Origin: a virus
Direction: 5' to 3' (one strand)
Virus record (IMG/VR): IMGVR_UViG_3300046170_000065
Location: 1-45,744 of that record
Length of the DNA stretch: 45,744 nucleotides
The position numbers were made by a program, and so were the translations under genes. Below, piece after piece: positions 1-18,168 of this stretch (positions within the stretch are counted from its first letter, which is position 1; the number at the start of each line of letters is the position of its first letter). The notes beneath the pieces were generated by a model. The model was not told the origin of the DNA. It did no database searches and saw nothing but the letters and a program-made list of their open reading frames with translations.

Positions 1-12
1 ACTCTATAGACT

Positions 13-34
13 CAGAATACTCTAAAGTATTCTG
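13..34. repeat. Hairpin 1 of leader array
   Basis: A 9-bp perfect stem (CAGAATACT / AGTATTCTG) closes a CTAA tetraloop. It is the first of four neighbouring perfect hairpins. No T-run follows on either strand, so it is not a standard terminator. Confidence 0.8.
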
Positions 35-62
35 TAAACTAGAGAGCTTTGGAGTTCTGAGG

Positions 63-84
63 CTAGAGTCTGACAAGACTCTAG
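63..84. repeat. Hairpin 2 of leader array
   Basis: A 9-bp perfect stem (CTAGAGTCT / AGACTCTAG) closes a GACA tetraloop. Its stem is nearly the same as that of hairpin 3, pointing to duplication or a shared binding site. Confidence 0.8.
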
Positions 85-99
85 AGATTCTGGAGGTTC

Positions 100-119
100 T
101 AGAGTCTGATAAGACTCTA
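100..119. repeat. Hairpin 3 of leader array
   Basis: An 8-bp perfect stem (TAGAGTCT / AGACTCTA) closes a GATA tetraloop. The stem matches hairpin 2, while the loop differs at one base (GATA versus GACA). Confidence 0.8.
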
Positions 120-127
120 AAGTCACT

Positions 128-161
128 CGCCCTCTAAAGACTTATTAGTCTTTAGAGGGCG
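128..161. repeat. Hairpin 4 of leader array (15-bp stem)
   Basis: A perfect 15-bp stem (CGCCCTCTAAAGACT and its exact complement) closes a TATT tetraloop. It is the strongest hairpin in the control region. It lacks a flanking T-run on both strands, so intrinsic termination is unlikely. RNA stability, processing or protein binding in the leftward leader is a better guess. Confidence 0.85.
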
Positions 162-228
162 GGGCAGGAGGCCGGAGGGGGTATACCTATATATATACTA
201 AATGTTATACATTTCTGGAACTTCAGAG

Positions 229-240
229 TGTTAAGTAGTT
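229..240. repeat. 12-bp direct repeat, copy 1
   Basis: TGTTAAGTAGTT occurs here and again at 279-290, with starts exactly 50 bp apart. Possible repeated protein-binding site; function unknown. Confidence 0.55.
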
Positions 241-278
241 CGTCGGAGGGATGGGGATTAATAAATAACTATAAAAAC

Positions 279-290
279 TGTTAAGTAGTT
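279..290. repeat. 12-bp direct repeat, copy 2
   Basis: Second exact copy of TGTTAAGTAGTT (first at 229-240), lying in the presumed leftward leader. Confidence 0.55.
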
Positions 291-390
291 TTTAAGCGCA
301 TAGAGGCTTTAAAGTCTTTAAAGGGGTTTCAATCCGCTAGGATTGTCGAGGTGGTCTATATAGATATATAGCCGGGGGGCTACAAAGTAT

Positions 391-419
391 ATTATACAGT
401 CCACAGAGCATTTTGTCAA
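391..419 (-). promoter_or_regulatory. Leftward perfect-consensus sigma70 promoter
   Basis: On the minus strand TTGACA (419-414) and TATAAT (396-391) are separated by exactly 17 bp, a perfect match to the bacterial housekeeping consensus. Transcription would start near 384 and run left off the window edge. On a circular molecule it would then enter the replication operon at 45739. It is the mirror image of the rightward promoter at 436-464. Confidence 0.85.
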
Positions 420-441
420 GTACTTTAGAAAACACTTGACA
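414..441. promoter_or_regulatory. Dyad over both -35 boxes (candidate operator)
   Basis: TGTCAAGT (414-421) and ACTTGACA (434-441) form a perfect 8-bp inverted repeat with a 12-nt centre. The arms contain the -35 boxes of both divergent promoters. One protein bound here could block or switch both. The symmetry may also simply reflect two identical -35 boxes. Confidence 0.55.
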
Positions 442-464
442 GAACCTGTATTTAGCTCTATAAT
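436..464 (+). promoter_or_regulatory. Rightward perfect-consensus sigma70 promoter (late block)
   Basis: TTGACA (436-441) and TATAAT (459-464) have a 17-bp spacer, again a perfect consensus. The predicted start point, near 471, falls at the ATG of the small terminase gene (472). The mRNA would therefore be leaderless or nearly so, consistent with the missing Shine-Dalgarno sequence. Confidence 0.87.
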
Positions 465-471
465 ATTAATA

Positions 472-843
472 ATGAGTAAAGAACTAACAGTTAAACAGAA
501 AGATTTCTTAGACTATCTAGTCGAAACTGGAGGTGATCCTAAGAAAGCTGCTGACTTAGCAGGCTATGCAGAGAATGGACATTGGCAGGTTGTCAAATCA
601 CTAAAGCATGAAATTATTGATCTGGCCTCTAACATTCTCGCTCAGTCAGCACCCCAAGCAGCTATGAAGCTTGTAGAGGTTATGCACTCTGACCAGCCTA
701 TTCCTCAAGCGAATATGCGCTTACAAGCTGCACAGACTATCTTAGATCGCACAGGACTAGGTAAACAGGAAAGGTTAGAAGTAAATAATAATCTTACTGG
801 TGGTTTATTTATATTACCTGCGAAAGTTAATGAGGCGAACTAG
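472..843 (+). CDS. terS: Terminase small subunit
   Basis: Probable DNA-recognition subunit of the packaging motor, judged from its place just before the large subunit. The 123-residue product opens with a helix-turn-helix-like segment (about residues 7-30: VKQKDFLDYL, then GDPKKAADLAGYA), as in phage small terminases, followed by helices likely used for oligomerisation. The start at 472 is chosen because an in-frame TTG at 436 is itself the -35 box of the promoter. No Shine-Dalgarno precedes 472 and transcription probably starts at about 471, so leaderless initiation is likely. The end overlaps the next gene by 14 bases. Confidence 0.8.
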   Translation: MSKELTVKQKDFLDYLVETGGDPKKAADLAGYAENGHWQVVKSLKHEIIDLASNILAQSAPQAAMKLVEVMHSDQPIPQANMRLQAAQTILDRTGLGKQERLEVNNNLTGGLFILPAKVNEAN

Positions 844-1063
844 TAGTACTATACCTTTCGGGTACAAGTTATCCGAAGATGCTAAAACTCTAGAGCCTGT
901 AGAAGATGAATTAATATCTTTACGTAAAATTAAAGATATGGTATCTTCACAATCAATGTCTTTACGCGAGGGAGCTGAATGGTTAACACATATGACAGGT
1001 AGAAGTATTAGTCATGTTGGCCTAAAGAATATTATATATGGAAGAATGGGAGAAGAATCCTGA
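830..1063 (+). CDS. Small recombinase-type helix-turn-helix protein
   Basis: A 77-residue protein that begins inside the end of the small terminase gene and ends inside the large terminase gene. The opening IPFGYKLSEDAKTLEPVEDE, followed by a SLREGAEWL helix and a GRSISHVGLKNIIYG segment, resembles the 'Recombinase' DNA-binding domain found C-terminal in large serine recombinases. The catalytic resolvase domain is absent, so it should bind DNA but not recombine it. Its place between the terminase genes suggests a packaging or regulatory role (inference). The ATG at 830 is preferred over upstream starts, which lie deep in the previous gene. Confidence 0.65.
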   Translation: MRRTSSTIPFGYKLSEDAKTLEPVEDELISLRKIKDMVSSQSMSLREGAEWLTHMTGRSISHVGLKNIIYGRMGEES

Positions 1064-2711
1064 TAAGTACCTTACTGATGCCGAAGGTAACTTCGTCCTC
1101 AAGAAGGACGGGACACCAAAGTTAAAAGGTGGCAGACCTAAAGGTTCAAAGGGTAGGGGCTATAACTACCATTCAGAGACAAAGACAAAACTACAGGCGC
1201 GGAGAGTTGTACGCCAGAAAGAAAAGAACGCAGAGCGTACCAGAGTCAAGCTTAATCAACAAAGAGAAACACTCAAAGCCTCTAAAGAAACTTTAAATAA
1301 ACTAGATAATAATACTAATAAAGTAATTACAGATGATGTACTGTCACAGGTTCCAAAGTCTTTAAGGGAAGAAGCTAATAATAATGTTATCTTTAAACCT
1401 AACGAGGGACCACAGACAGATTTCCTAGCAGCTCCTGAGAAGGACGTATTGTACGGAGGAGCAGCTGGGGGTGGTAAGTCCTACGCTATGCTTATAGATC
1501 CTCTTAGATACGCTCACAGAGCTGCTCATAGGGGGTTAATACTTAGGCGATCGATGCCTGAGTTAAGAGAGTTAATAGATAAGTCTAGGGAGCTTTATCC
1601 AAGAGCTTTCCCCGGATGTAAGTACAGGGAAGTTGAGAAGCTTTGGAACTTTCCTTCAGGGGCTAAAATAGAATTTGGATTCTTGGAACGAGATGCAGAT
1701 GTTTATCGTTATCAAGGACAAGCATATAGTTGGATAGGATTTGATGAGATTACTCACCTGCCAACAGAGTTTGGATGGAATTATCTGGCTTCACGATTGC
1801 GTACTACAGATTCAGATATTATTCCATATATGCGGTGTACAGCTAACCCCGGTGGCGTTGGCGCACATTGGGTAAAGAAAAGATATATATTACCATCAGA
1901 ACCTAATGAGTCTTTTAGAGGTGAGGATGGTTTAACTAGAAAGTTTATACCAGCTCGATTAGATGATAATCCTTATCTAGCTGAAGATGGTCGCTACGAA
2001 GAGATGCTTAAAGCTCTTCCTGCGATTCAAAGAAAGCAGTTATTAGAAGGTAACTGGGAAATAGCAGAGGGTGCTGCCTTCACAGAGTTTGAAGCAGAAA
2101 CCCATATAGTCACACCATTTGAAATCCCAATAGGCTGGGAACGTATAAAAGGTATTGACTACGGTTATGCTTCAGAGAGTGCTTGCGTTTGGGGATGTGT
2201 TGATCCTTCAGACGGTACTTTAATTATATATAGAGAACTGTATCGTAAAGGACTGACAGGCGTTGACTTAGGACATCTTATCGCAGAGATGGAAATAGAA
2301 GACCCTTTCTCAGTTCCGGGAATTTTAGATACAGCTGCTTGGGCTAAGACAGGATCTACCGGGCCTACAGTAGGTGAAGCTTTAATGCGTATAGGTCACA
2401 AGCTAAGAAGAGCAGATAAGAATAGGATACAAGGTAAAATACAAATTCACGAATACTTACGAGTTCAGCAAAGCGGAAGGCCCAAGTTGCAAATATTTAA
2501 CAATTGCCCTAACCTGATACGCGAACTGCAAAGTATTCCTTTAGATAAAACAAACCCAGAGGATGTGGATACAAGAGCTTCGGATCACGCTTATGATGCA
2601 CTAAGATATTTAATTATGTCTAGACCTAGAGTTTCTGATCCTCTATCAAGGATTAGGCACATGCATCGTGAACAAGCCTACACCCCCATTGATTCAGAGT
2701 TTGGTTACTAA
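1038..2711 (+). CDS. terL: Terminase large subunit (ATPase and nuclease)
   Basis: Motor and nuclease that cuts and pumps DNA into the prohead. Of 557 residues, the ATPase shows Walker A GGAAGGGKS (140-148), Walker B WIGFDE (232-237) and a coupling-type TANPGGVG segment (268-274). The nuclease shows acidic residues at D374 (GIDYG) and D431 (GILDTAA), and a DHAYDALRY signature near the C-terminus. A basic extension of about 110 residues precedes the ATPase and carries GGRPKGSKGRG (31-41), an AT-hook-like DNA-binding motif. Start at ATG 1038, overlapping the previous gene by 26 bases, with only a weak ribosome site, so the exact start is somewhat uncertain. Confidence 0.93.
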   Translation: MEEWEKNPDKYLTDAEGNFVLKKDGTPKLKGGRPKGSKGRGYNYHSETKTKLQARRVVRQKEKNAERTRVKLNQQRETLKASKETLNKLDNNTNKVITDDVLSQVPKSLREEANNNVIFKPNEGPQTDFLAAPEKDVLYGGAAGGGKSYAMLIDPLRYAHRAAHRGLILRRSMPELRELIDKSRELYPRAFPGCKYREVEKLWNFPSGAKIEFGFLERDADVYRYQGQAYSWIGFDEITHLPTEFGWNYLASRLRTTDSDIIPYMRCTANPGGVGAHWVKKRYILPSEPNESFRGEDGLTRKFIPARLDDNPYLAEDGRYEEMLKALPAIQRKQLLEGNWEIAEGAAFTEFEAETHIVTPFEIPIGWERIKGIDYGYASESACVWGCVDPSDGTLIIYRELYRKGLTGVDLGHLIAEMEIEDPFSVPGILDTAAWAKTGSTGPTVGEALMRIGHKLRRADKNRIQGKIQIHEYLRVQQSGRPKLQIFNNCPNLIRELQSIPLDKTNPEDVDTRASDHAYDALRYLIMSRPRVSDPLSRIRHMHREQAYTPIDSEFGY

Positions 2712-2723
2712 TAAGGTAATAGT

Positions 2724-4904
2724 ATGGCTGGTGGAAACACAATAACAGATAGTGCTAATAATGTTTACTTCCAAGACGTAGAAGGTGAGGAAGGTAAAAC
2801 ACTTAACCTTGAAGATTCACTACGTAATCAATTCATAGGTGTTATTTATGACCGCTATCAATCAGCTAAAGATGCTAGAGATCAAGATGAGAAGCGTTGG
2901 ATAACGGGGTATCACAATTACCGTGGACTTTATGCAAAACACTATAAATTCAGGGAATCAGAAAAATCAAGAGTCTTTGTTAAAGTTACTAAAACTAAGG
3001 TTCTTGCTGCTTTTGGTCAGCTAGTGGATGTAGTCTTTGGTTCCAATAAGCTCCCAATTGGAATATCAGAGACAAATATACCGGAAGGAGTTGCTGAGTA
3101 CGCGCATCTCGATACACAGAATCCGGTTCCAAGTATTGAAACTAGCTTACCAGCCCCAGAGCCTGACAGTTCAAATCCTTACGATGTAGGGTATGCAGGT
3201 GACGGTAAAGTCTTAAATGCTGGGGCAACCTATGTTAAAGGCAAAACTGAAGATGTAGACGCAGTATTAAAAGATTCACTTACGGATGGTGCTACAGCTA
3301 TCCCACAGTTTTATGAAACTAAGCCAGCTCAAGAAGCTGCAAGGCGTATGGAAAAGCTGATCCATGATCAAATAGAAGAATCAAAAGGATCTAGTGAAAT
3401 ACGAAATGCTTTGTTTGAATGTTCATTGTTTGGAACAGGTATACTTAAAGGACCATTTAACTTTAACAAGACTCTTAATCGTTGGAAAGAAAACGCAGAG
3501 GGTGAAAGAGAATACAATCCTGTAGATGTACGTGTACCTAAAATAGAATTTGTAAGTATATGGGATTTCTTTCCAGATCCTAATGCTACTAACATGGACG
3601 AGTGTGAATACGCTTTTCATCGTCATAAGATGAATAAGTCTCAAGTAAGAGCGTTGGCGCGTATGCCTTACTTTAATAAAGAAGCTATACGTGATGCTTT
3701 ACGTATGGGTCCGAACTATGAGCCTGAACAGTACGAACACGAGTTAAAAGATGATAATCGTTCTGAAGAGTATGGCTCTGGGCAATTTGAAGTCTTAGAG
3801 TACTGGGGAATAATGGATGCAGAGTATGCCAAAGAAGCTGGCATGGAGCTGCCTGAAGGCGTTGATGACTTAGATGAAGTCCAGATTAACGCATGGATTT
3901 GTAATGGTAATGTACTAAGAGCTGTTGTTAATCCTTTTACTCCACATAGAATTCCATATAATGCTTTCCCTTATGAAAGAAATCCATACAGCTTCTTCGG
4001 TATAGGTGTAGCTGAAAACATGGATGACTCTCAGAAGATTATGAATGGTCATGCACGTATGGCAATAGATAATCTAGCGTTGTCAGGTTCCTTAGTATTT
4101 GATGTAGATGAGTCTGCCTTAGTAGGCGGTCAAAGTATGGAAATATATCCGGGTAAAATATTTAAGCGTCAAGCTGGTATGCCCGGAACTTCTATCAATG
4201 GATTAAAGTTTCCTAATACATCTACAGAAAACATGATGATGTTTGATAAGTTTAGGCAGTTAGCAGATGAACAAACAGGAATACCAAGCTACTCGCATGG
4301 TCAAACTGGAGTTCAAAGCATGACACGTACCGCTTCAGGTATGTCAATGCTACTAGGTGCTGCTTCTTTAAATATAAAAACAGTTATAAAGAATCTAGAT
4401 GATTTCTTATTACGTCCTTTAGGTGAAGCTTATTATCAATGGAACATGCAATTTCTAGATAAAAAGCTTAACATAGAAGGTGATTTAGAAGTTAAAGCCA
4501 CGGGTACTAATAGTTTGATGCAGAAAGAAGTACGTAGTCAAAGACTAACTATGTTCTTACAGACAGCACAGAATCCTTCTATAGCACCCTTCATTAAAAT
4601 TAACAAGCTAATTAGCGAACTAGCTTATTCTCTGGAGCTTGACCCTGAAGAAATTCTTAATGATCCAGAAGAAGCTGCTATCATGGCACAAATCATAGGA
4701 ATGCAAAATGCTGGACAAGGATCTGGTGAGGCAGCTCAAGCCTCTGGTGAACAACCCGGAAGTATGGGAGCCAATGAAGAACTACCTCCAGAAGGCCAAG
4801 ATGTCGGAGTTACGGGTACTGGCGGTGGCAACATCGGAACTGGAGATGTTCCGCAGTCAGGGGAGAGTGAATTCTCTGGAACGCTTAGAGAGGTTACGGG
4901 ATAA
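2724..4904 (+). CDS. Portal (head-tail connector) protein
   Basis: A 726-residue protein just after the terminase, in the usual portal position and of podovirus portal size. It would form the ring at the capsid vertex through which DNA passes. The N-terminal part contains YDRYQSAKDARDQDEKRW, and a long mixed core includes the NPFTPHRIPYNAFPYERNP region. The last 60 residues or so are rich in Gly, Glu, Ser and Gln and look disordered; this tail is overprinted by another gene from 4708. Start ATG 2724 follows an AAGGT-type ribosome site. The portal call rests on position and general character more than on a diagnostic catalytic motif. Confidence 0.85.
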   Translation: MAGGNTITDSANNVYFQDVEGEEGKTLNLEDSLRNQFIGVIYDRYQSAKDARDQDEKRWITGYHNYRGLYAKHYKFRESEKSRVFVKVTKTKVLAAFGQLVDVVFGSNKLPIGISETNIPEGVAEYAHLDTQNPVPSIETSLPAPEPDSSNPYDVGYAGDGKVLNAGATYVKGKTEDVDAVLKDSLTDGATAIPQFYETKPAQEAARRMEKLIHDQIEESKGSSEIRNALFECSLFGTGILKGPFNFNKTLNRWKENAEGEREYNPVDVRVPKIEFVSIWDFFPDPNATNMDECEYAFHRHKMNKSQVRALARMPYFNKEAIRDALRMGPNYEPEQYEHELKDDNRSEEYGSGQFEVLEYWGIMDAEYAKEAGMELPEGVDDLDEVQINAWICNGNVLRAVVNPFTPHRIPYNAFPYERNPYSFFGIGVAENMDDSQKIMNGHARMAIDNLALSGSLVFDVDESALVGGQSMEIYPGKIFKRQAGMPGTSINGLKFPNTSTENMMMFDKFRQLADEQTGIPSYSHGQTGVQSMTRTASGMSMLLGAASLNIKTVIKNLDDFLLRPLGEAYYQWNMQFLDKKLNIEGDLEVKATGTNSLMQKEVRSQRLTMFLQTAQNPSIAPFIKINKLISELAYSLELDPEEILNDPEEAAIMAQIIGMQNAGQGSGEAAQASGEQPGSMGANEELPPEGQDVGVTGTGGGNIGTGDVPQSGESEFSGTLREVTG

Positions 4905-4926
4905 CGTAAATGACTACAAAGACTAA
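4708..4926 (+). CDS. Overprinted small protein, portal-tail overlap
   Basis: A 72-residue protein read in the +1 frame of the portal gene. It overlaps the portal's last 197 bases and the start of the next gene by 17 bases. The ATG is preceded by AGGA (4697-4700) at 7-nt spacing. The product, with LKPLVNNPEVWEPMKNYL and FRSQGRVNSLERLERLRDN, looks like a normal helical protein rather than random translation. Small helical proteins of this sort often follow phage portals. The matching portal stretch is low-complexity, as expected when the other frame is under selection. Function unknown. Confidence 0.65.
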   Translation: MLDKDLVRQLKPLVNNPEVWEPMKNYLQKAKMSELRVLAVATSELEMFRSQGRVNSLERLERLRDNVNDYKD

Positions 4927-5092
4927 AAGTAAAGTAAATGCAGCAGGTAATTACACTAATCCTACTATGCGTAAGAACCTTTTTAATAAAATTAAAGCAG
5001 GAAATAAAGGTGGCAGCTCAGGTCAATGGTCTGCACGTAAAGCGCAGATGTTAGCAAAACAATATAAAGCTGCTGGTGGTGGTTACAAGTAA
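4910..5092 (+). CDS. Small basic protein of unknown function
   Basis: A 60-residue Lys/Gly-rich protein (NPTMRKNLFNKIKAG, GQWSARKAQMLAKQYKAAGGGY). The composition suggests nucleic-acid or protein-surface binding. It overlaps the preceding overprinted gene by 17 bases. Its stop TAA shares its last base with the ATG of the next gene (TAATG). Similar small basic proteins are common beside portals in marine podoviruses, to my knowledge. No function can be assigned. Confidence 0.75.
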   Translation: MTTKTKSKVNAAGNYTNPTMRKNLFNKIKAGNKGGSSGQWSARKAQMLAKQYKAAGGGYK

Positions 5093-5895
5093 TGGCACTT
5101 AAAAAATCACAACAGTCCTTAAAAAACTGGACAGACCAGAAGTGGAGAACCAAAAGCGGTAAGCCCTCCACTCAAGGATCTGAAGCTACGGGTGAAAGAT
5201 ACTTACCTGAAAAAGCTATTAAGTCTATGTCTGATTCAGAGTATGCAGCTAGTACTAAAAAGAAAAGAGAAGATACTGCAAAAGGAAAGCAACATTCTAA
5301 GCAACCTGACAAGGCTGCTAAAACATCACGTAGATACAGAAGTATGGGTGGACCTATGAATTTTATGGATGCTTTCAATAACCCACGACCGATGTTAAGA
5401 AAAGCAGAAGGTGGGGAAATTCCTGAAGATACATATGATAATGTACCACCCGAAGAGCAACAAGCTATGTTGGATTCACAACTTCCAGATGCTCAAATGG
5501 AAGAAGCATACATGGACTATGTGTTAAATGAAACATTAGATGAATCCGAAAAAGAATATTTACAGAATGCTTTAGCAGCAGATCCTCAACTTAGTTCTAT
5601 TTTAGATAAAGTTGTAGTAACTGCTGCTGAGTTTTCTGGGGCTGGAGAAGTTGAAGGCCCCGGAACTGGTGTATCAGACTCTATACCTGCCAGATTATCT
5701 GACGGGGAGTTTGTATTCACTAAGAAGGCCACTGATCAAATAGGTGCTGACAACCTGCAGAAAACTATGGATGCAGCTGAACGTGCTTATGATGGTGGTT
5801 TAATGAGTCGGCCTGAAGAAGCCACGCCTTTTGATTCTGATGATAAAATGAAGAGTCAAATGGCTGAAGCTAATCAAATGCCGAGTATTCGTTAA
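5092..5895 (+). CDS. Structural-module protein, DUF5872-like N-terminus
   Basis: A 267-residue protein starting within the TAATG overlap. The N-terminus (LKNWTDQKWRTKSGKPSTQG, GERYLPEKAIKSMSD, GKQHSKQP) resembles the DUF5872 family seen in phages and large viruses. The acidic middle carries an RKAEGGEIPED double-glycine element. The C-terminus has GPGTGVSDSIPARLSDGEFVF, a signature I associate with phage head/tail assembly proteins. Its place between portal and scaffold suggests a virion or assembly role (inference). No enzyme motif is visible. Confidence 0.65.
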   Translation: MALKKSQQSLKNWTDQKWRTKSGKPSTQGSEATGERYLPEKAIKSMSDSEYAASTKKKREDTAKGKQHSKQPDKAAKTSRRYRSMGGPMNFMDAFNNPRPMLRKAEGGEIPEDTYDNVPPEEQQAMLDSQLPDAQMEEAYMDYVLNETLDESEKEYLQNALAADPQLSSILDKVVVTAAEFSGAGEVEGPGTGVSDSIPARLSDGEFVFTKKATDQIGADNLQKTMDAAERAYDGGLMSRPEEATPFDSDDKMKSQMAEANQMPSIR

Positions 5896-5898
5896 TAC

Positions 5899-5973
5899 GG
5901 CTACCTTGAAGTAACAAGCCCCTATCAGTTTGACGAAACATAAAGATAGGCTACCTTGTAGGCAACAAGCCCC
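5899..5973 (+). repeat. Duplicated GGCTACCTTG motif upstream of scaffold gene
   Basis: Two near-identical units, 5899-5922 and 5949-5973, each begin GGCTACCTTG and end CAAGCCCC. Each can fold as a GGCT/AGCC hairpin with inner TTG/CAA pairing. The spacer adds a CCTATC (5921-5926) / GATAGG (5945-5950) inverted repeat that competes with or links the two units. The block ends just before the scaffold ribosome site GGAG (5978-5981), so it could act on translation or RNA processing of the capsid genes. No promoter boxes are visible here. Confidence 0.6.
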
Positions 5974-5988
5974 GTTTGGAGAAGTAAC

Positions 5989-6834
5989 ATGACTGAAGCA
6001 GTACAACAAGTAGAGGAAAAAGAAGCAAATCCTTATAACATGAAAAAAGATTGGCATGCTGGAAAGGAAGAGAATTTCGAGAATGCTAATGGTTTATTTT
6101 TTCAATCTGAACCTGTAGTAGAAAAGGCTACCTCCAGCGAAGCTGAAGCCCCTAAAGAAACTAAAGGTAAAGATGTAAATTATAAGAAGCGTTACGATGA
6201 TTTAAAGAAGCATTATGATAGTAAAGTTTCTGAATTTAAGCAGCGTGAGCAAGAACTAGTAGCGGAAGCAAAAACTAAAGCTCCTCAGTATCAAGCTCCT
6301 AAGTCTGCCGAAGAGATAGAATCTTTCAGGAAAAAGAATCCAGATCTGTACGAAACAGTAGAGACTGTAGCACATCTTCAAAACGAACAGCAATTGGCAG
6401 ATATACGTCAAGAGCTAGTTTCATTGAAGCAACGTGAGACTGACATAGCTAAGAAGGAAGCTGAAGTTGAGTTGCGTAATAGGCATCCTGACTTTGAAGA
6501 CCTTCGTAGCAATGAAACCTTTCACGAGTGGGCTAAAGCTCAACCTGAACAAATACAAAATTGGATTTATAACAATCCTAATAATGCAGAATTAGCTAGT
6601 AAAGCTATTGATTTGTATAAACTCGAAAATGGAATTAAAGCTCAGTCAACCAAACCTCAGTCTAAACAACAGGGAAGTGCAGCAGATATGGTGTCTACTA
6701 AGACTAAAGCCATTGATACTAAGCAACCTAAAGTATGGACTGAACGGGAAATCGCTAAGATGTCCATCGCTGAGTATGATAAGTATGAACAAGATATTAA
6801 TCAGGCAATCAGTGAAGGACGAGTGATTAAATAA
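5989..6834 (+). CDS. Capsid scaffolding protein
   Basis: A 281-residue, highly charged, mainly helical protein directly before the coat gene. The VNYKKRYDDLKKHYDSKVSEF segment is followed by a long Glu/Lys coiled coil, as in scaffold proteins of T7-like marine phages. It would guide prohead assembly and be absent from the mature head. ATG 5989 has a good GGAGAAG ribosome site. The upstream repeat block may tune its expression. Confidence 0.8.
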   Translation: MTEAVQQVEEKEANPYNMKKDWHAGKEENFENANGLFFQSEPVVEKATSSEAEAPKETKGKDVNYKKRYDDLKKHYDSKVSEFKQREQELVAEAKTKAPQYQAPKSAEEIESFRKKNPDLYETVETVAHLQNEQQLADIRQELVSLKQRETDIAKKEAEVELRNRHPDFEDLRSNETFHEWAKAQPEQIQNWIYNNPNNAELASKAIDLYKLENGIKAQSTKPQSKQQGSAADMVSTKTKAIDTKQPKVWTEREIAKMSIAEYDKYEQDINQAISEGRVIK

Positions 6835-6861
6835 TTTTGTCTTTTATTGAGGTAATTAAAA

Positions 6862-7851
6862 ATGGCTTATAACCAATCAGATCAATTTTTCGAGCCGAGT
6901 ACGGATACCGATGCTAACTTTGCGAACTCCGTAAGTGGTCAAACCAATTCATTCTTCCTGCCTTCTATTTATAGTAAGTCAGTACTGAATTTTTTCCGTA
7001 AGTCCTCTGTGGCTGAAGCAATCACTAATACTGATTATGCTGGGGAAATTTCCGCTTTCGGTGATTCTGTAAAGATCATCAAAGAACCTGAGATTACTGT
7101 GTATCAGTATGAAAGAGGTGCAGATGTTACACAAACTAAGTTGACAGACCAAGAGGTAACTCTTGTTGTTGATACTGCGAATGCATTCAAGTTCATCGTT
7201 GATGACATTGAAAGCAACATGTCTCATGTAAACTTCCGTGAAGTTGCAGCTTCTTCTGCTGCTTACTCTTTGCGTGATGCTTTCGATGAAGGCGTAATTG
7301 CAGCTATGTTTGCAGGAGTATCTGCAGCTTCTCCTAACCACATCTTAGGTTCTGATAGCGCAACTGACCTTGCAGCAGGTACTTTTGACGGTACTGGTAA
7401 TCTAGACATAGGTTTTGCTTCTGGTGAGCATGACCCAATTGATGTTCTTTCACACATGGCCCGTCTACTTGACGAGCAAAATGTTCCTGAAGAAGGTCGT
7501 TGGTTCCTAGCTAATCCAGAGTTTTATGAGCAGCTTGTACAAAGCAACTCAAAACTTTTGTCAGTTGATTACAACGCTGGTCAAGGTTCTATCCGTAATG
7601 GTCTGGTATCATCTGGTAAGTTACGTGGATTTGATATGTACAAGACTAACAATATCGCAGCTACTTCAAACGCAGCTGGTAAGTGTATTGCTGGTCACAT
7701 GTCATCTACATGTACTGCTCAGACTATTGTTAACACCGAAGTAATTCGTGATCCAAGCAGCTTTGGCGATATAGTACGAGGACTCCATGTTTATGGAGCT
7801 AAAGTACTACGTGGCGAAGCGTTGGTATCTGCATTCTACGGTATTGACTAA
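6862..7851 (+). CDS. Major capsid protein
   Basis: A 329-residue protein following the scaffold gene, with good codon quality and a GAGG ribosome site. The Gln/Asn-rich start, then a FLPSIYSKSVLNFFRKSSVAE segment, then beta-rich blocks (DSVKIIKEPEITVYQYERG) and a long central helical stretch fit a HK97-fold coat protein as found in T7-like podoviruses. It would form the icosahedral shell. A hairpin with a T-rich tail directly follows the stop, so it may end one major transcript. Confidence 0.85.
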   Translation: MAYNQSDQFFEPSTDTDANFANSVSGQTNSFFLPSIYSKSVLNFFRKSSVAEAITNTDYAGEISAFGDSVKIIKEPEITVYQYERGADVTQTKLTDQEVTLVVDTANAFKFIVDDIESNMSHVNFREVAASSAAYSLRDAFDEGVIAAMFAGVSAASPNHILGSDSATDLAAGTFDGTGNLDIGFASGEHDPIDVLSHMARLLDEQNVPEEGRWFLANPEFYEQLVQSNSKLLSVDYNAGQGSIRNGLVSSGKLRGFDMYKTNNIAATSNAAGKCIAGHMSSTCTAQTIVNTEVIRDPSSFGDIVRGLHVYGAKVLRGEALVSAFYGID

Positions 7852-7859
7852 ATATTATT

Positions 7860-7887
7860 GGGGGCTGAAATATGCCCCCTTTAATTT
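7860..7887 (+). terminator. Probable intrinsic terminator after coat gene
   Basis: GGGGGC (7860-7865) pairs with GCCCCC (7874-7879) across an 8-nt loop, followed by TTTAATTT. It lies 8 bases past the coat stop. The interrupted T-run suggests partial termination, which would give more coat mRNA than tail mRNA. Confidence 0.7.
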
Positions 7888-7903
7888 CAATGGAAGTTAA
7901 AGC

Positions 7904-8071
7904 ATGCCTCAGATTGGAACTGAACATAATCCTGTAAGATTTAACGTCAACAATAAAGTTAAGATACGTTCTCCTTATATGAAAAGTGAGAACAAAAAAA
8001 AGTTTGACGATAACTTTGATCGCATTTTTAGAAACTCTAATAATCCTAGTAAGCAAAAAGAGGACAGTTAG
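7904..8071 (+). CDS. Small protein of unknown function (55 aa)
   Basis: A short gene after the coat terminator: MPQIGTEHNPVRFNVNNKVK at the N-terminus, then a Lys/Asn-rich C-terminus. A GGAAG ribosome site lies at good spacing before ATG 7904. The next short gene starts one base after the TAG. Probably a minor virion or assembly protein by position only. Confidence 0.6.
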   Translation: MPQIGTEHNPVRFNVNNKVKIRSPYMKSENKKKFDDNFDRIFRNSNNPSKQKEDS

Positions 8072-8072
8072 T

Positions 8073-8207
8073 ATGATGTATGGCAAAGATAAAAAGAAAG
8101 AAAAGAAAAAAATGTATAGTAAAGGAGGTAAGGCTAATGGCAACGCTATGGCACGTAGAGATAAGAAAGCTATGGGCGGTGAGATGAAAAAAGGGAAGCC
8201 TTGTTAA
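8073..8207 (+). CDS. Small Lys/Gly-rich protein (44 aa)
   Basis: Starts ATGATG at 8073 (second ATG at 8076 also possible). The product is very basic, with two double-glycine elements (MYSKGGKANG and KKAMGGEMKKG) of the same style seen in larger virion proteins of this genome. An AGGA ribosome site lies about 9 bases upstream. Possibly DNA-binding within the head; function unknown. Confidence 0.5.
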   Translation: MMYGKDKKKEKKKMYSKGGKANGNAMARRDKKAMGGEMKKGKPC

Positions 8208-8360
8208 ATGAAAGTCTCGGCCCCTAAAGGCTATCACTGGATGAAAAGTGGTAAGTCTTATAAACTAATGAAAGATCCCAAGGATGGATACAAAGCCCAT
8301 ACAGGATCTTCAAAGTCTGCTAACTTTGAAATTCAAAAGGTTCATAAAACTAATGGCTAA
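8208..8360 (+). CDS. Small conserved-looking protein (50 aa)
   Basis: Starts immediately after the TAA of the previous gene and overlaps the next gene by 8 bases. The product (KGYHWMKSGKSYKLMKDP, then AHTGSSKSANFEIQKVHK) reads as a compact folded protein. I recall similar 'PKGYHWMK' proteins near the coat genes of marine phages. The AAAAAAGGGAAG stretch upstream can serve as ribosome site. Role unknown. Confidence 0.65.
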   Translation: MKVSAPKGYHWMKSGKSYKLMKDPKDGYKAHTGSSKSANFEIQKVHKTNG

Positions 8361-9123
8361 ATCCTTTTTACAGTTAACAAATGAGCTGTTGCGTGAATCC
8401 AATGAAGTAATATTGACTTCATCTAACTTCGGCTCTGCTACAGGAATACAAGCCCATGCTCAAGACTGTATAAATAGATCTTATTTAGATATTGTAAATG
8501 AAGAACCTAAGTGGCCTTTTTTAGCTACGGCTGAAAGTGGCACAACAGATCCTATGTATGGAAATGTTTCTGTAGAAACTACAGCAGGTACTCGCTGGTA
8601 TGAATTAAAGCCGGCCAGTAATAGCTTAACCACAGACTATGGAGCTATTGATTGGGAAAATTTCTACTTAACTACAGTAGGAGTTACAGGCGAAGTAGCA
8701 CCATATGTTTCTAAAAACTTAAACTATTTAACACCAGAAACTTGGAAAGATTTTAGAAGAGTTTCTGAAAACATGGATGATGCAGATACTCAAAACTGGG
8801 GAGAGCCTAATGGAATAGTGCGAAGTCCTGATGGTAGAAAATTTGGACTTACTCCTATTCCTAAGCAAGTGTATAAAGTTTGGTTCTTTGCTTATGATTT
8901 GCCTACAGCGTTATCAGATTATTCAGATGAAATAGTATTTCCTGATTTGTATAGCACTGTACTTATAGCTAAGGCTAGGTATTACTTGCATCAATTTAAA
9001 GACAACCCACAATCAGCAGCTTTTGCTCTTGATGATTACAAAAAAGGATTAAGAAGTATGCGTGAAAACTTACTTGATCCTAGCACATCCTATTTTAAAG
9101 ATGATAGAGTGGTATTTATTTAA
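8353..9123 (+). CDS. Tail adaptor protein (T7 gp11-like tubular A)
   Basis: A 256-residue protein that would bind below the portal and seat the tail. The N-terminus (MAKSFLQLTNELLRESNEV, then CINRSYLDIVNEEPKWPFL) and later DALRVSENMDD-like Trp/Tyr-rich blocks match the gp11-type gatekeeper family of T7-like phages. The internal ATG at 8353 is preferred over an upstream in-frame ATG because the family begins at MAKSFLQLTN and this start gives an 8-base overlap with the previous gene. Confidence 0.75.
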   Translation: MAKSFLQLTNELLRESNEVILTSSNFGSATGIQAHAQDCINRSYLDIVNEEPKWPFLATAESGTTDPMYGNVSVETTAGTRWYELKPASNSLTTDYGAIDWENFYLTTVGVTGEVAPYVSKNLNYLTPETWKDFRRVSENMDDADTQNWGEPNGIVRSPDGRKFGLTPIPKQVYKVWFFAYDLPTALSDYSDEIVFPDLYSTVLIAKARYYLHQFKDNPQSAAFALDDYKKGLRSMRENLLDPSTSYFKDDRVVFI

Positions 9124-10718
9124 TGTCTTTAGCATTTGGTTTATCTTGTAAAGGAGGTTTAAATACTAACCTCAACGAATTTGATATGCTTCAAAATCCG
9201 GGACTTGCCAAAGAGTTGCAAAACTTTGAGGTAGACCCTGATGGCGGTTACAGAAGAATAAACGGTTACTCTAATTACGGAGACACACGACCCGAAGGTG
9301 CTAGTAAAATTTTAGGTGTTACGCCTTATGGACCGGGCGTAGTAGCTTGTGTAGATACTTCTATCTATTATACTGAAGACGGCTCTACATGGACTCAGAT
9401 AAATGTTGATACAGGTAATAGTGGAGTACTGCAATCTGCATTAAGCAGTCAATCAGTTCTCGATAGACCTAATCAAGGACAAGCTCAATTTTCTTTGATG
9501 AAGTCATCTTTAAGTGCAACTAGTGCTACTTATGGTTCGCTGTCTATAGCAACTGGTCCAAATAAAGTAGCTCACTTTCATATAGATGGTACTGGAAACA
9601 CAAGAAAATTTGTATACAGAGAAACTTCAAGTCCTTCTGCTGGTCAATTTATAGAGATACATGATAAACATTTATGTGTAGTTGACACTACTAATGCACC
9701 TAGTACTTTATCTTATTCTAAAACAAATGACGATAAAGATTTTACTGGTACAGGTTCAGGTTCAGTAACAATAGCAGATGACATTACAGGCATTAAAAGT
9801 TTCCGTGGTTCATTATTTATTTTTTGTCAGAACAGTATTCATAGACTTGATAACATCAACGATTCTGCTAACACTACTGTTGTTCAAATAACAAATAACA
9901 TTGGATGTTTAAGCGGATATAGCATTCAAGAATTTGCTGGAGATATTATATTTTTAGCTCCAGATGGGTTACGCTTAGTAGCTGCTACCTCACGTATTGG
10001 TGACGTAGAGTTAGGCTCTGTTTCAAGACAAGTACAGGCGTTATTAGCTTCTTTAACTTCTAGTATATCTAGCTACACTGTTAGTAGCGTTGTATTAAGA
10101 AATAGATCTCAATATAGATTATTTTACACAGGATCAGGAGCTGATATAAATGCTTCATTAGGCGTAATAGGAACATTAACTCCTAATGGATTTGAGTGGT
10201 CACAAGTAAAAGGTATTCAAGCTCCTGCCATATCTTCAGGATTTAATGCAACTGGAATTGAAAAAGTTTATCATGGTGATAACTTAGGTTACATTTACAA
10301 CCACGACACAGGAAGTAATTTTTATCAAAACGGCACTGTCAAAACAATAAGTGCAAAATATCTCACACCTAATTTAGATTTCGGAGATGTCGGAACTTTA
10401 AAAACATTAAAGTATGCTAAAGTTTCTATTGGCCCAGAAGGAGATATAACTCCTTTTTTAAGAGTTAGATACGATTACGAAGATCCAGCAATACCTCAAC
10501 CCGGTGATTATGAAATAACAAACATTAGAACGCCTGCTGTTTTTGGTAGTTCTCTTTTTAATTCAGCTACATTCGGAGGCTCATTAGATCCAATGACTAG
10601 ACTATCTATACAAGGTAGTGGACATACTTGTAGCTTTAAAATTTTTACTGATGACAACAAGCCATCATATTCAATTAATGGTTTGTATATAGATTACATG
10701 CCGTCTGGTAGGAGATAG
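9123..10718 (+). CDS. Tail tube/nozzle protein, propeller type
   Basis: A 531-residue beta-rich protein coupled to the previous gene by TAATG. The N-terminus (LSCKGGLNTNLNEFDMLQNP, then ELQNFEVDPDGGYRRINGY) and repeated blade-like segments (GVVACVDTSIYYTEDGSTW, SFRGSLFIFCQNSIHRL) suggest a beta-propeller. Proteins like this take the place of tubular protein B (gp12) in many marine podoviruses. It would form the nozzle of the short tail. The functional call relies on position and fold style. Confidence 0.65.
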   Translation: MSLAFGLSCKGGLNTNLNEFDMLQNPGLAKELQNFEVDPDGGYRRINGYSNYGDTRPEGASKILGVTPYGPGVVACVDTSIYYTEDGSTWTQINVDTGNSGVLQSALSSQSVLDRPNQGQAQFSLMKSSLSATSATYGSLSIATGPNKVAHFHIDGTGNTRKFVYRETSSPSAGQFIEIHDKHLCVVDTTNAPSTLSYSKTNDDKDFTGTGSGSVTIADDITGIKSFRGSLFIFCQNSIHRLDNINDSANTTVVQITNNIGCLSGYSIQEFAGDIIFLAPDGLRLVAATSRIGDVELGSVSRQVQALLASLTSSISSYTVSSVVLRNRSQYRLFYTGSGADINASLGVIGTLTPNGFEWSQVKGIQAPAISSGFNATGIEKVYHGDNLGYIYNHDTGSNFYQNGTVKTISAKYLTPNLDFGDVGTLKTLKYAKVSIGPEGDITPFLRVRYDYEDPAIPQPGDYEITNIRTPAVFGSSLFNSATFGGSLDPMTRLSIQGSGHTCSFKIFTDDNKPSYSINGLYIDYMPSGRR

Positions 10719-10720
10719 GA

Positions 10721-11698
10721 ATGGCAGGAACAAATTATACGCGACAAAGTACATTTGCAGATGGCGATACTATTACCGCTGCTTTATTTAATGACGAATA
10801 TAATCAGCTTTTAAATGCTTTTACTTATGCTAGTACAGGAACTACTGGACATAGGCATGATGGTTCAGCAGGACAAGGCGGTAATATTCATACTATTGGC
10901 GATCAAGATTTTTTAAATAAGATTGTTGTTGATAGTACAAACAATAGATGGGGAATTTTTGTTGAAGTAAGTTCTGCAGCTGTAGAACAAATACGAATAC
11001 AAGATGGAGCAGTTGTACCTGTCACTGATAGTGATATTGATTTAGGTACAAGCTCTTTAGAATTTAAAGATTTATACATAGATGGGACAGCAAACATAGA
11101 TGCCTTGGTTGCTGATACGGCTGATATAAATGGTGGAACTATTGATGGGGCTACAGTTGGTGCTGCTTCTGCAAGTACCGGAGCATTTACAACCCTTGAT
11201 GCTTCTGGAGCTACTACTCTTAGCGGTACTTTATCTGTCGAAGGAAATACCACACTTGGAAACGCGGCAACCGATACAGTTACCTTTACTGCCGACATTG
11301 CCTCAGATATTATACCCTCTGCTGATAGTACTCATAGTCTTGGGGACAGCTCTACTTATTGGGCGAATGCCTATATAGATGCAATTACTACTACAGGTAA
11401 TGTATCCGTAGGAGGAAATCTAACGGTTACAGGCACTACCACATTTAATGGAGGAACTCTTACTTTAGGAGATGCTGCTGACGATAATGTTGTATTTGGT
11501 GCAGATGTCAATAGTAATATTATTCCTAATACAGACAACGCTTATGATTTAGGTTCATCTAGTCAAGAGTGGAAAGACTTGTATGTAGATGGTACAGCTT
11601 ATTTAGATGCTATAAATTTTAATGGTACAGCAATTAGTTCTACAGCTGCCGAGTTAAATATTCTTGATGGTGTTACAAGCTACTACTGCAGAACTTAA
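10721..11698 (+). CDS. Long tail fibre, N-terminal part (frameshifted)
   Basis: A 325-residue open frame that stops soon after an apparent one-base insertion (C at 11680). It carries the virion-attachment side of a long fibre: the start [19 protein letters not shown], repeated LG[TS]SS-E-[FW]KDLY[IV]DGTA units, and the first [14 protein letters not shown] repeat. Its last residues (YYCRT) are out of register. Joined to the next frame, the fibre would be 1007 residues. It may be made as a truncated fibre if the insertion is real. Confidence 0.75.
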
Positions 11699-11835
11699 CA
11701 TACTAGATGGAGTAACTTCTACAGCTGCCGAGTTAAATATTCTTGATGGTGTTACAAGTACTACTGCAGAACTTAACATACTAGATGGAGTTACATCTAC
11801 TGCAACTGAATTAAATTTAGTAGACGGTTCTACTG
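11638..11835 (+). repeat. Tandem fibre repeat array 1 (39-bp units, 78-bp duplication)
   Basis: About five 39-bp units encode variants of [13 protein letters not shown]. Two 78-bp double units, beginning at 11638 and 11717, are nearly identical at DNA level except for an extra C at 11680 in the first copy. The identity suggests a recent tandem duplication, and the extra base breaks the fibre reading frame. Confidence 0.8.
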
Positions 11836-13745
11836 CAGGAACAGTTGTAAATAGTAAAGCAGTTATTTATGGCTCCTCTGGAGAAGTAAAGGGTACTACT
11901 TTTCAAACAGCTACAAATACTTCTGGTAATTTGCTAATCGCTAATGGAACAGCTTTTGCATCTACGGCGGTCGGAGATCTATCAGAAATTTCTACTGTAG
12001 CTAGTGATGATGTATTGCTTGCAGTAGATACTTCTGGCGGTGGTTTAAAAAGAATTTCTAGAAGTACATTAGTTGCAGGATTAGCTGCATCATCAGCCAT
12101 TTCAAATGTAGTTGATGATACTACACCACAGCTAGGCGGTGATTTAGATGTAAATGGAAATGATGTAGTTTCTACTTCTAATGGTAATATTACTTTAACT
12201 CCTAACGGAACTGGAGTTGTTAGAATAGATGGTAATGTAGATATTCAATCTGGAGAAGTTGTATTAAAAAATTCAGGTTCAGTATCTAATGTTAAATTTT
12301 ATTGTGAAGTAAGCAATGCACATTATACACAACTACAATCATCTGCTCATTCAGCATATTCTGGTAATGTAGTATTAACCTTACCTCCGTCTACAGACAC
12401 TTTAGTAGGTAAGGCAACTACTGACACTCTTACAAACAAAACACTAACAAGCCCAGTTCTTACAACACCTAATATTGGAACACCTAGTGCAGGAGTATTA
12501 ACTAATGCAACTGGGCTACCTTTATCAACTGGTGTTACTGGTACATTACCTGTTGCTAATGGAGGCACAGGAGCAACTACTGCAGCAGCAGCCCGAACTA
12601 GTTTAGGTTTAGTTATTGGTACAAATGTATTAGCTTTTGATACGAATCTACAAGCTTTTACAACAGCTTTTACACTTCCTACTTCAGACGGCACTAGTGG
12701 GCAAGCTCTTATTACTAATGCGTCAGGAACAATTTCTTTTGGAGATGTAGATTCTCTTCCTAGTCAATCTGGTAATTCAGGAAAATTTTTAACTACAAAT
12801 GGCACAGCAGCTTCTTGGGCCACTGTAGGTAATTCAGCCTACTCACGTACTTCTTTTACAGCTACTGCAGGGCAAACAACTTTTAGTGTTAGTTATACTG
12901 TAGGCTTTGCAGATGTATTTTTAAACGGTATTAAATTAGTATTAGCTACAGATTTTACAGCTACTAATGGAACTTCTATTGTTTTAGCATCTGGGGCTGC
13001 TGTTAATGATCATGTAGAAGTATTAGCTTATAATGTTATTAGTGTAAGTAATGTTTATACACAAGTACAAACTGATGCTAAATATGCACATGTTTCAAAT
13101 AACCTTTCTGATTTAGCTTCAGCTTCTACAGCTTTAACTAATTTAGGACTTACAAGCACTGCAGCAGAACTAAATATTTTAGATGGGGTTACAAGTACTG
13201 CAGCAGAACTTAATATTTTAGATGGTGTCACAAGTACTGCAGCAGAACTTAATATTTTAGATGGTGTCACAAGTACTGCAGCAGAACTTAACATCCTTGA
13301 TGGTGTTACTGCTACTGCAGCCGAAATTAATTACAATGACATTACAACTCTTGGAACAAGCCAAGCTTCAAAAGTTTTAACAGCTGACGCAAATGGCGAT
13401 GTACTTGCTAGTGAAGAGTTTAAAGCAAAAAGTTATAATGAAACCTATGTAGCAATGTCTGCAAACGATGTTGATTGTGAAACAGGTAACTTTTTCTCAA
13501 AGACAATTTCTGCAAACACTACGTTTACGTTTAGCAATCCTCCTGCAAGTGGAACTGCCTATGGTTTTGTTTTACAGCTAACAGTAAGCGGTACACGCAC
13601 AGTTACTTGGCCCAGTGCTGTTGATTGGGCAGGTGGTTCTGCACCAGATGCTCCAGCTTCAGGTGAAACAGATATATTGTGTTTTATTACACGCGACGGT
13701 GGTACCACTTGGTACGGTTTCCTCGCAGGAGATGCTTTAGCGTGA
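11681..13745 (+). CDS. Long tail fibre, C-terminal part (frameshifted)
   Basis: Continuation of the fibre in the +1 frame. An isolated ATG exists at 11664 in this frame, but there is no convincing ribosome site, so independent translation is doubtful. About 690 residues include the [10 protein letters not shown] array, a [15 protein letters not shown] segment, a [23 protein letters not shown] motif typical of phage fibre trimerisation regions, a second array of four repeats (about 13150-13310), and a C-terminal beta domain ([28 protein letters not shown]). It probably trimerises and contacts the host surface. Confidence 0.7.
13150..13310 (+). repeat. Tandem fibre repeat array 2 (39-bp units)
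   Basis: Four consecutive 39-bp units encode [13 protein letters not shown]. Adjacent copies differ at only a few bases. The array separates two fibre regions and should be prone to unit gain and loss by recombination. Confidence 0.85.
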
Positions 13746-15079
13746 GCCTTATTTCAACTCTTACAATGCTAGGTAAAGCCGGTTCTGGTAGTGGCGTTTC
13801 TTATTGGGTAAACGAAGCTCATATATCACGATCATACGGATGGTCTTCTTCGCTTGGTAGAATAGCTGTAAGTTCAGATCATGTGGTTATGTTTGGTAAG
13901 GAGCAGGTAGAAAACTCCTACACTGGTAGTGCTATTTTGGTCTACGACCAAGACGGCAGCCAATTAAGCACAAAGCTATTCTGGAATAATTCTGGTCAGT
14001 CTGCATCGGATCGTACTGAGCCGACTTCAGCAATGTATGACGAAACTACCGATAGATTTTATACCCCAAACTATGGGCCAGCAGGTTCTAGTCAACTCTC
14101 GCGATGGCAGATGGGTAGCAATGACCTACTATCTTCAAATTACTGCAAGAGTGGTGGTGGGACAAACGATACTTTTCCCTCTAATATAACGTCTACTGCC
14201 TCCAATGAAGTATCTTACTTCTCACGAGGTGTACTACCGAGTTCTACTTGGAACAGCACAGTATACAACGTTGCCTATAAAAGCAGTGGCAGTCATGTAA
14301 AGAGATACGTCATTGGCAACACCAACTACAACTACTACCCATCCTGTGGTGCTTTTGAGCAATATAATTCAACACCTACTTACGGTTATTTAGGCTTCTA
14401 TTTTTATCAATCTGGCTTGAAAGGAGGAGTTACAAAGTTTAATTTATCAAACGGCTCAACTGAGTGGGGCAGAAGACTCCAGTATGACGACGGATACGGT
14501 AGCAGTTATAGCGGTAGACTTAATGCCGTCTGCCCAGACGACTCAGGAAATGTTTTGTGTGGGTTTGATTTTTCTGGAGGAAATAACCCTCTGGTTTTAT
14601 TAAACAGTTCAGGGTCGGTAGTTTGGTCAAGAAGCTCAGATTCTGAAATTATCAGAATTGATTGGGATAATGTAAACGACCGATGGGTAATTCTAACTGC
14701 TTACCGGATGAAATTAGAGTTTATTTACCCAAACGGAACTACTGCTCAAGGGTTAGAAGTAAATATCTCCGGTCTTGATATGAACACTAACAACAGTGAC
14801 GTTAAATATGATTTTGTAAATAACATTGCTTGGATTTTTGGTCATAGAAATAGTGATTACAAATATATTGTTAAAAGACCTTTAGATTCTTCGCTCGATG
14901 GGACGTATGGCTCTTACACTTTAGCTACGACAAACAGTGGCATTGGCACTAGTTGGACTTCTGGTTACTCTTGGAACAATGTAAGTATGACCGGATACTC
15001 CGATACTGTTAGTACAACTAGTATGAGTATAAATCAACTTACTAACTATGTGTCTACAACTAAAACAGATTTAGGGTAA
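13742..15079 (+). CDS. Propeller-like tail/receptor-binding protein
   Basis: A 445-residue beta-rich protein. The GTG start at 13742 overlaps the fibre stop as GTGA and follows AGGAG (13727-13731); an ATG at 13766 is the alternative. After [14 protein letters not shown] come repeated blade-like blocks ([48 protein letters not shown]), as in WD/SBBP-like propellers found after fibres in marine phages. A distal adhesin role is likely from position. No enzyme motif seen. Confidence 0.6.
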
Positions 15080-15083
15080 ATTT

Positions 15084-15533
15084 ATGTATATAAAAGTAAA
15101 CAACGACGCGCCTGAGAACTATTCAATCGGACAGCTTCGGAGAGACAACCCACAAACTTCTTTTCCAAAACAAATTTCAGAAGAAATGCTTGCTGAGTAT
15201 GATGTGTACGCAACTACAACCGCAAAACCACCTGAAGTATTATCGACACAAAAATTAAATCAATCTACCAAACCAGTTCTTGTTGACGGAGCGTGGGTAT
15301 ATCAGTGGACTGTTGTTGAAAAAACTGCGGATGAGATTGCGGAGTATAATGCAAATCAAGCTACCGCTATGCGTGAAAAAAGAAATACTCTTCTTTCAAA
15401 CACCGACTTTTATGCCTTATCAGATGTCACTATGACTGACACAATGGCTACTTACAGGCAAGCCTTGAGGGATATTACTACTCACTCAGACTTTCCTAAT
15501 TTGTCTGACGATGATTGGCCTACAGCCCCATAG
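15084..15533 (+). CDS. Tail fibre assembly chaperone (Phage_tail_APC type)
   Basis: A 149-residue protein. The C-terminal block ATAMREKRNTLLSNTDFYAL, then MATYRQALRDI and a closing PNLSDDDWP matches the Phage_tail_APC family (MRxKRxxLLxxSDW...YRQALRDI...FP...W). Such proteins help fold or attach the neighbouring fibre. The N-terminal half is specific to this phage and includes SIGQLRRDNPQTSFPKQI. It lies between two fibre-type genes. Confidence 0.75.
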   Translation: MYIKVNNDAPENYSIGQLRRDNPQTSFPKQISEEMLAEYDVYATTTAKPPEVLSTQKLNQSTKPVLVDGAWVYQWTVVEKTADEIAEYNANQATAMREKRNTLLSNTDFYALSDVTMTDTMATYRQALRDITTHSDFPNLSDDDWPTAP

Positions 15534-15542
15534 GAGTTTTAA

Positions 15543-16154
15543 ATGAGTAGAGCAAGAGATATAGCTGATAGCGCATCTACTATCAATGCACTTGACGGTG
15601 TTACTGCTACTGGAGCAGAACTAAATATTTTAGATGGTGTAACAAGCACAACAGCTGAATTAAATTTAGTAGACGGAGTTACAGGTACTACAGGTACAGG
15701 TAATATGGCGTTAAGTACTAGTGCAGCACTTACAACTCCTAAAGTTACTACTGGTATACAAGACTCAGGTGCTAACTTAGTTATTCCTTTTGATACCAAT
15801 CAGTTTTTTTCTGGTACATTTTCTGATAAAGTTGTGGCTATAGGAAACACCGGAACATCACAAACAATAGATTTAAATGATGGTAATTTATTTACTGCTA
15901 CACTTAATGGTAATTGTACTTTTACACTCGCTACTGCTAATAGTGTTAGTAATAGAGGAAGTTCATTTACTTTAGTTCTAACTAACGATGGAACGGCAGG
16001 TCGAAGTTTGGCTTTGGCGGGAGGTACATTTAAATACCCCGGTGGGTCGGTGACTAGAACGACCGACGCAAATACAACAGATATATGGTTCTTTTTCACA
16101 CCAGATGGTGGGACAACCTACTATGTAAGTATACCTATGAAAAATCTTTCTTAA
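15543..16154 (+). CDS. Short tail fibre/tip protein with shared repeats
   Basis: A 203-residue protein with a strong AGGAG ribosome site. The N-terminus MSRARDIADSASTINALDGV is a widespread start of phage fibre proteins. It is followed by two copies of the same repeat as the long fibre ([26 protein letters not shown]). The C-terminal domain (NGNCTFTLATANSV, FTLVLTNDGTAG, YPGGSVTRTTDANTTDIW) is close in style to the end of the long fibre. It may be an alternative or accessory fibre tip. Confidence 0.75.
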   Translation: MSRARDIADSASTINALDGVTATGAELNILDGVTSTTAELNLVDGVTGTTGTGNMALSTSAALTTPKVTTGIQDSGANLVIPFDTNQFFSGTFSDKVVAIGNTGTSQTIDLNDGNLFTATLNGNCTFTLATANSVSNRGSSFTLVLTNDGTAGRSLALAGGTFKYPGGSVTRTTDANTTDIWFFFTPDGGTTYYVSIPMKNLS

Positions 16155-18162: not shown

Positions 18163-18168
18163 ATAACT

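Follow-up and report, generated by a model that had tools for sequence, protein, structure and literature searches.

Divergent consensus sigma70 promoter sequences at the early/late gene junction of a marine podovirus and its relatives

Gene arms and promoter boxes in the window

The DNA analyzed here, referred to as the window, is a truncated marine podovirus record of 45,744 bases (IMG/VR record IMGVR_UViG_3300046170_000065). The phage is kin of the pelagiphages HTVC115P, HTVC103P and HTVC104P (host HTCC7211), to whose large terminase subunit (TerL) its own is 64-67% identical, and more distantly of HMO-2011; identity to HMO-2011 and the CRP-type roseophages is approximately 45-50%. By identity in pairwise comparison, its TerL is nearer to that of HTVC115P (66%) than to that of HMO-2011 (50%). 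Homologous terminase, portal and replication genes, as well as the two-arm layout, match the group of HMO-2011-type phages and related pelagiphages. A near-identity search of the phage collection with positions 1-20000 of the window gave no match, and scanning the window for tRNAs and Rfam families likewise gave no hit. The plus arm encodes TerS, TerL, portal, capsid and tail proteins, and the minus arm encodes a PDDEXK nuclease, an SSB-like protein, a primase-helicase, a DNA polymerase, a Cas4-type exonuclease, an endonuclease and ribonucleotide reductase. The two arms diverge from a pair of promoter sequences, and the following features define the junction:

391-419, minus strand: early-arm promoter, TTGACA (419-414), 17-nt spacer, TATAAT (396-391), 12/12
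420-435, no strand: 16-bp gap between the two -35 boxes
436-464, plus strand: late-arm promoter, TTGACA (436-441), 17-nt spacer, TATAAT (459-464), 12/12
472-843, plus strand: terS, first gene of the late arm (PHROG terminase small subunit)
1038-2711, plus strand: terL, large terminase (PHROG; 64-67% identical to HTVC115P, HTVC104P and HTVC103P)
42548-44212, minus strand: primase-helicase gene
44235-44250, minus strand: intrinsic terminator of the early arm, immediately ahead of the primase-helicase gene

Scored against the sigma70 hexamers (sequences near TTGACA and TATAAT with a spacer of 16-18 nt), both strands give 12/12 with a spacer of 17 nt, and boxes, spacers and coordinates are all as the original prediction had them. 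No further 12/12 site occurs on either strand of the 45,744-base window, and the second-best match (11/12) lies on the minus strand at 45399-45371. This promoter-like sequence, TTGACA-17-TATGAT, is located within the PDDEXK nuclease gene and possibly represents a second early promoter. Under a first-order Markov model of the window, 0.020 perfect sites with a 17-nt spacer are expected, and perfect divergent pairs with -35 boxes 0-50 bp apart are expected at approximately 1.1 × 10−7. RNA usually starts approximately 7 nt past the -10 box of a sigma70 promoter, which places the predicted starts at approximately 384 on the minus strand and at 471-472 on the plus strand, about 87 bp apart.

The distance from the minus promoter to the start of the primase gene is approximately 7-8 kb in two long relatives, compared with 1.9 kb in the window when its ends are joined, and the first early ORFs of four relatives have no match anywhere in the window. 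Because of this shorter distance and the unmatched ORFs, we conclude that small early genes amounting to roughly 5-6 kb are missing between the ends of the window (positions 1 and 45744). The window ends within the early leader, and therefore the operon first served by the minus promoter is absent from it. The prediction that the phage has no RNA polymerase of its own was upheld within the part of the window's ORFs that was searched: neither the minus-arm proteins that were searched nor the annotation of HTVC115P includes one.

Conservation and geometry of the promoter pair

A TerL scan of IMG/VR yielded 80 loci, 75 of which had enough upstream sequence for comparison. A divergent promoter-like pair adjoins terS in 72 of these 75 loci (the window counted in); 54 of the pairs score 24/24, 15 score 23/24 and 3 score 22/24. 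The plus promoter is held at 11/12 or better in 71 of the 75 relatives' pairs or better scored pairs. The three exceptions (L049, L053 and L054) form one clade, in which the minus promoter scores 11/12 and the plus promoter only 9/12. Loci were scored at a threshold of at least 10/12, which biases box conservation upwards, and almost none were discarded; many of the loci are near-identical, leaving 44 that are non-redundant. The boxes are near-invariant, whereas the spacers are 56-59% identical by column. In cultured phages, both strands of HTVC115P score 12/12, HTVC103P and HTVC104P have 12/12 on the minus and 11/12 on the plus strand, HTVC033P has 12/12 on the plus and 11/12 on the minus strand, and the HMO-2011 junction carries a perfect late promoter only. 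Among 18 long relatives, the pair constitutes the sole perfect sites of the record in 10. As anticipated, almost all relatives thus retain host-type promoters on both strands, directed towards the early and the late arm.

A consensus match alone is neither activity nor proof of function, and a match arising by chance has to be considered. An exact-pattern scan of the whole IMG/VR collection returned divergent pairs in at least 120 stretches, against 59 for the convergent control, and among the matches listed 75 of the 118 analyzed divergent-pair loci fall outside the window's family. The back-to-back perfect arrangement is therefore not unique to this phage group, a fact that speaks for chance, whereas the excess over the convergent control speaks against it, as does an expectation of only about 1 × 10−7 pairs. 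Chance is excluded mainly because the pair is conserved in relatives where spacers and gaps have diverged, and we regard a functionless match as extremely improbable. Both sites are very probably real, functional sigma70 promoters, one facing the early arm and the other the late arm; their activity, start sites and timing are what we infer from sequence.

The original prediction had gone further and read the locus as a single symmetric switch, in which one regulator or polymerase bound at the dyad would select early or late transcription. Its elements are present in the window: the two box pairs share a center at 427.5, and an 8-bp dyad (414-421/434-441) is found as described. However, the common center is uninformative, as divergent promoters with equal spacers always share one, and six of the eight bases in each arm of the dyad are the -35 box itself. 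Likewise, chance is indeed an unlikely source of the perfect pair, but mirror spacing and dyad add nothing to that argument. The comparison with relatives that had been proposed as a check confirmed conservation of the boxes and not of the dyad or the exact mirror spacing. The gap between the -35 boxes varies between 6 and 49 bp with 24 distinct values, the two spacers of a locus differ in length in 8 of the 72 loci, and in the 44 non-redundant relatives the exact dyad reaches just 0-3 bases past the -35 hexamer. Mirror identity of the two spacers was also considered as a signal and dropped, since matches within a locus (7.2 of 16 positions) barely exceed those between different loci (6.6 of 16). 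No common additional site was found in the gaps of the relatives, nor was a site found at the axis for the proposed regulator acting on both directions.

Because the gap varies, the dyad stops at the boxes and the spacers are unequal in 8 of 72 loci, the exact mirror geometry is not under selection; the symmetry follows from geometry alone, and relatives do not conserve it. The boxes of some relatives lie just 6-9 bp apart, so that two polymerases might crowd, which would favor a switch. Nevertheless, predicted starts in the family are approximately 77-120 bp apart, compared with 10-23 bp at promoters sharing a -10 element (PMC12825309). Collectively, we consider a single bidirectional switch very unlikely, and two separate promoters fit the locus better.

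Two separate promoters could still be physically coupled, either by divergent supercoiling or through the shared A+T-rich gap, so that the firing of one alters the other. The promoters are closely spaced, and the gaps of the relatives are 75% A+T compared with 62.5% in the plus spacers, which makes a shared UP-type stretch possible. Moreover, no locus has a gap shorter than 6 bp, about the minimum we estimate for two bound sigma subunits. On the other hand, the gap varies without obvious helical phase, and coupling, although the least doubtful of the alternatives weighed here, remains unlikely in our judgment.

Predicted transcripts, leader RNA and terminators

On the plus side, the terS ATG of the window starts 8 nt past the end of the -10 box, and in 72 of 72 loci this distance is 6-11 nt, ATGs formed at the box edge being set aside. 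Because of the usual distance between -10 box and RNA start, the mRNA would carry only 0-4 nt before the ATG. The terS/late mRNA, with its predicted start at 471-472, is therefore predicted to be leaderless, a class of messages in which 0-5 nt precede the start codon. In HTVC033P, the plus promoter is located well upstream of terS, and hence the message is not leaderless there.

The minus side differs in that its predicted transcript begins with structured RNA. The leader spans approximately 0.5-1 kb ahead of the first sizeable early ORF and contains the following features:

367-384, minus strand: hairpin at the predicted 5′ end of the early transcript (folding in relatives; arm-swap test)
157-247, minus strand: non-coding leader element, CTnnTTnACA ... 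AAAATGTAT ... TTAGTATATATA ... TGGCCTCCTGCC (alignment of 42 copies)
128-161, minus strand: perfect 15-bp stem right after the conserved element, with similar hairpins in most relatives
Further copies of the element in relatives: L093, 15557-15637 (plus); L085, 504-585 (minus); L083, 336-404 (minus)

The hairpin starts where the minus RNA is predicted to start (approximately 384). In 42 distinct relatives, the first nucleotides of the minus RNA have a mean folding z of -2.9, with 83% below -1, compared with +0.3 for the plus-side RNA starts. When the 3′ arms were swapped between relatives, the mean folding energy weakened from -7.3 kcal/mol to -4.9 kcal/mol, and the observed value was not reached in any of 2000 permutations. 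The strength of this result is somewhat overstated, as each sequence was split according to its own fold and the relatives are non-independent. The same swap on a downstream control stretch had no effect. The pairing of the 5′ hairpin thus covaries among relatives. MAFFT combined with RNAalifold yielded no consensus structure for either the hairpin or the conserved element; for the hairpin this is because its variable loops were misaligned, and therefore per-sequence folding and arm swaps were used.

The element of approximately 85 nt has near-fixed internal spacing across the 42 aligned copies and is best seen as a sequence element, not a structure. A profile built from these copies finds one copy in the window (E value of 2 × 10−17) and gives weaker matches at the early/late junctions of CRP-1 (7 × 10−5), HTVC115P (2 × 10−4), HTVC103P (4 × 10−4), HMO-2011 (1 × 10−3) and HTVC104P (0.04). 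A role as a second sigma70 promoter was rejected, as no -10 hexamer with A2 and T6 occurs at an allowed spacing. Downstream of the element, most relatives have strong hairpins; positions 1-160 of the window hold dense short inverted repeats of the TCTAAAGACT type, and similar repeats fill the leaders of relatives. The motif TGTWAASTAGTT was discarded as an iteron because it is not enriched: the window contains 31 loose matches where 33.6 would be expected. Its only two exact copies both lie in the leader.

In the wider phage group, the element is a candidate for an origin, a packaging site or a site of RNA control. Its conservation beyond the range of the promoter pair raises the alternative that the conserved unit functions mainly as an origin of replication or in packaging, with promoters that prime or accompany replication and do not serve early/late expression. 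The GC skew changes sign at the far end of the two arms, which also counts in favor of this alternative, though gene direction changes there too. The promoters themselves, however, are conserved and face the two gene arms, and the packaging version is weakened because the element of CRP-1 and HMO-2011 remains at the junction even though terminase lies several kilobases away. We hold an origin or packaging function of the whole unit to be distinctly improbable.

Control after initiation is suggested by the conserved terminator in front of the primase-helicase gene (44235-44250 in the window). Terminator-like structures with differing stems precede the primase gene in 30 of 51 distinct relatives, and this recurrence may mean that the replication genes are gated by read-through. 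No strong plus-strand terminator is listed between terS and the portal gene. The nearest clear plus-strand terminator, directly after the major capsid gene, is a GC-rich stem flanked by T-rich sequence on both strands (7860-7879) and likely acts as a two-way terminator.

Taken together, we propose that early and late transcription diverge from this region in a marine podovirus for which no RNA polymerase is known. Here, a pair of separate sigma70 promoters of maximal consensus would recruit the host RNA polymerase without an activator. The minus promoter would produce an early RNA comprising the hairpin, the long structured non-coding leader and small early genes, followed by the SSB, primase and polymerase genes, while the plus promoter would start at the terS ATG and give a leaderless terminase/structural mRNA. 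Each promoter would be selected for its own boxes, the shared axis being a by-product. A perfect late promoter would be expected to fire at once, which is at odds with the usual timing of late genes; replication and late timing are probably set after initiation, by termination and read-through, RNA stability or poorer translation of the leaderless message, or else by an early repressor. As a whole, we regard this explanation as likely.

A more specific version gives the central part to the leader RNA. In phage HK022, put-type antitermination relies on a structured early leader RNA that drives terminator read-through in cis. In this version, the 5′ hairpin, the 85-nt element and the later hairpins would act in cis to let the host polymerase read through the pre-primase terminator, which, if true, would provide a built-in early-to-middle switch for phages without their own polymerase. 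The window has a structured leader and a downstream terminator, and it contains no Rfam match; such a role of the leader seems rather improbable.

Comparison with known systems

Early/late junctions with sigma70 promoters placed back to back are already known. In phi29, the early promoters A2b and A2c and the late promoter A3 lie in one intergenic region, are read by the host RNA polymerase and serve genes on opposite strands (PMC3100819), and the window resembles phi29 in that a single intergenic region would serve early and late genes lying on opposite strands. However, phi29 A3 has a poor -35 box and requires protein p4 (PMC3100819), whereas the late promoter of the window scores 12/12. No p4-like regulator was identified: the gaps hold no common site, the first early proteins of relatives had no confident match to known regulator families, and the window is without the early genes. 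Bidirectional bacterial promoters with a shared -10 element, whose starts are typically 10-23 bp apart (Warman and Grainger; PMC12825309), likewise show divergent sigma70 transcription from one short region. In contrast, the window has separate -10 and -35 boxes with predicted starts approximately 87 bp apart and falls outside that class.

Among its kin, the window shares with HTVC115P, HTVC103P and HTVC104P the divergent pair, the position of terS, the leader element and a TerL identity of 64-67%. HTVC103P and HTVC104P differ in their 11/12 plus promoter, and HTVC115P differs in a 16-nt minus spacer and in additional perfect late-strand promoters. The latter lie on the minus strand of MN698247.1 at 54238, 50898 and 18832, two of them ending in the same GAGGTGTATAAT, and some relatives have therefore added late promoters. 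With HMO-2011-type phages, the similarities extend to the gene order of the replication arm, the leader element at the early/late junction and a TerL identity of approximately 45-50%. In HMO-2011 and CRP-1, however, the late arm does not open with terminase, and the junction of HMO-2011 carries a perfect late promoter without an early counterpart. The paper on HMO-2011-type phages, which together with related pelagiphages are abundant marine viruses, makes no mention of promoters (PMC9038755). In the literature examined, mapped promoters or RNA data for this group and its related pelagiphages were not found; the pelagiphages with published transcriptomes, HTVC022P and HTVC027P, belong to different groups. 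In alphaproteobacteria, -7T is absent from many sigma70 promoters, which may depend on CarD (PMC8407463). The promoters of the window's family retain -7T, which would fit CarD independence if the host is SAR11 or another alphaproteobacterium.

Three features deserve follow-up: the late promoter with its perfect consensus, the leaderless start predicted for terS and the conserved element of the leader. The conserved pair provides a concrete starting point for transcription mapping. It leads to the prediction that the late mRNA is leaderless, and it poses a testable puzzle, namely what holds back late gene expression in a phage whose late promoter is perfect. A well-known leaderless mRNA is that of lambda cI transcribed from PRM. 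As in lambda cI, the predicted start in the window lies at or beside the ATG; unlike lambda cI, the gene is the first of a late structural operon, and the leaderless start is predicted from spacing.
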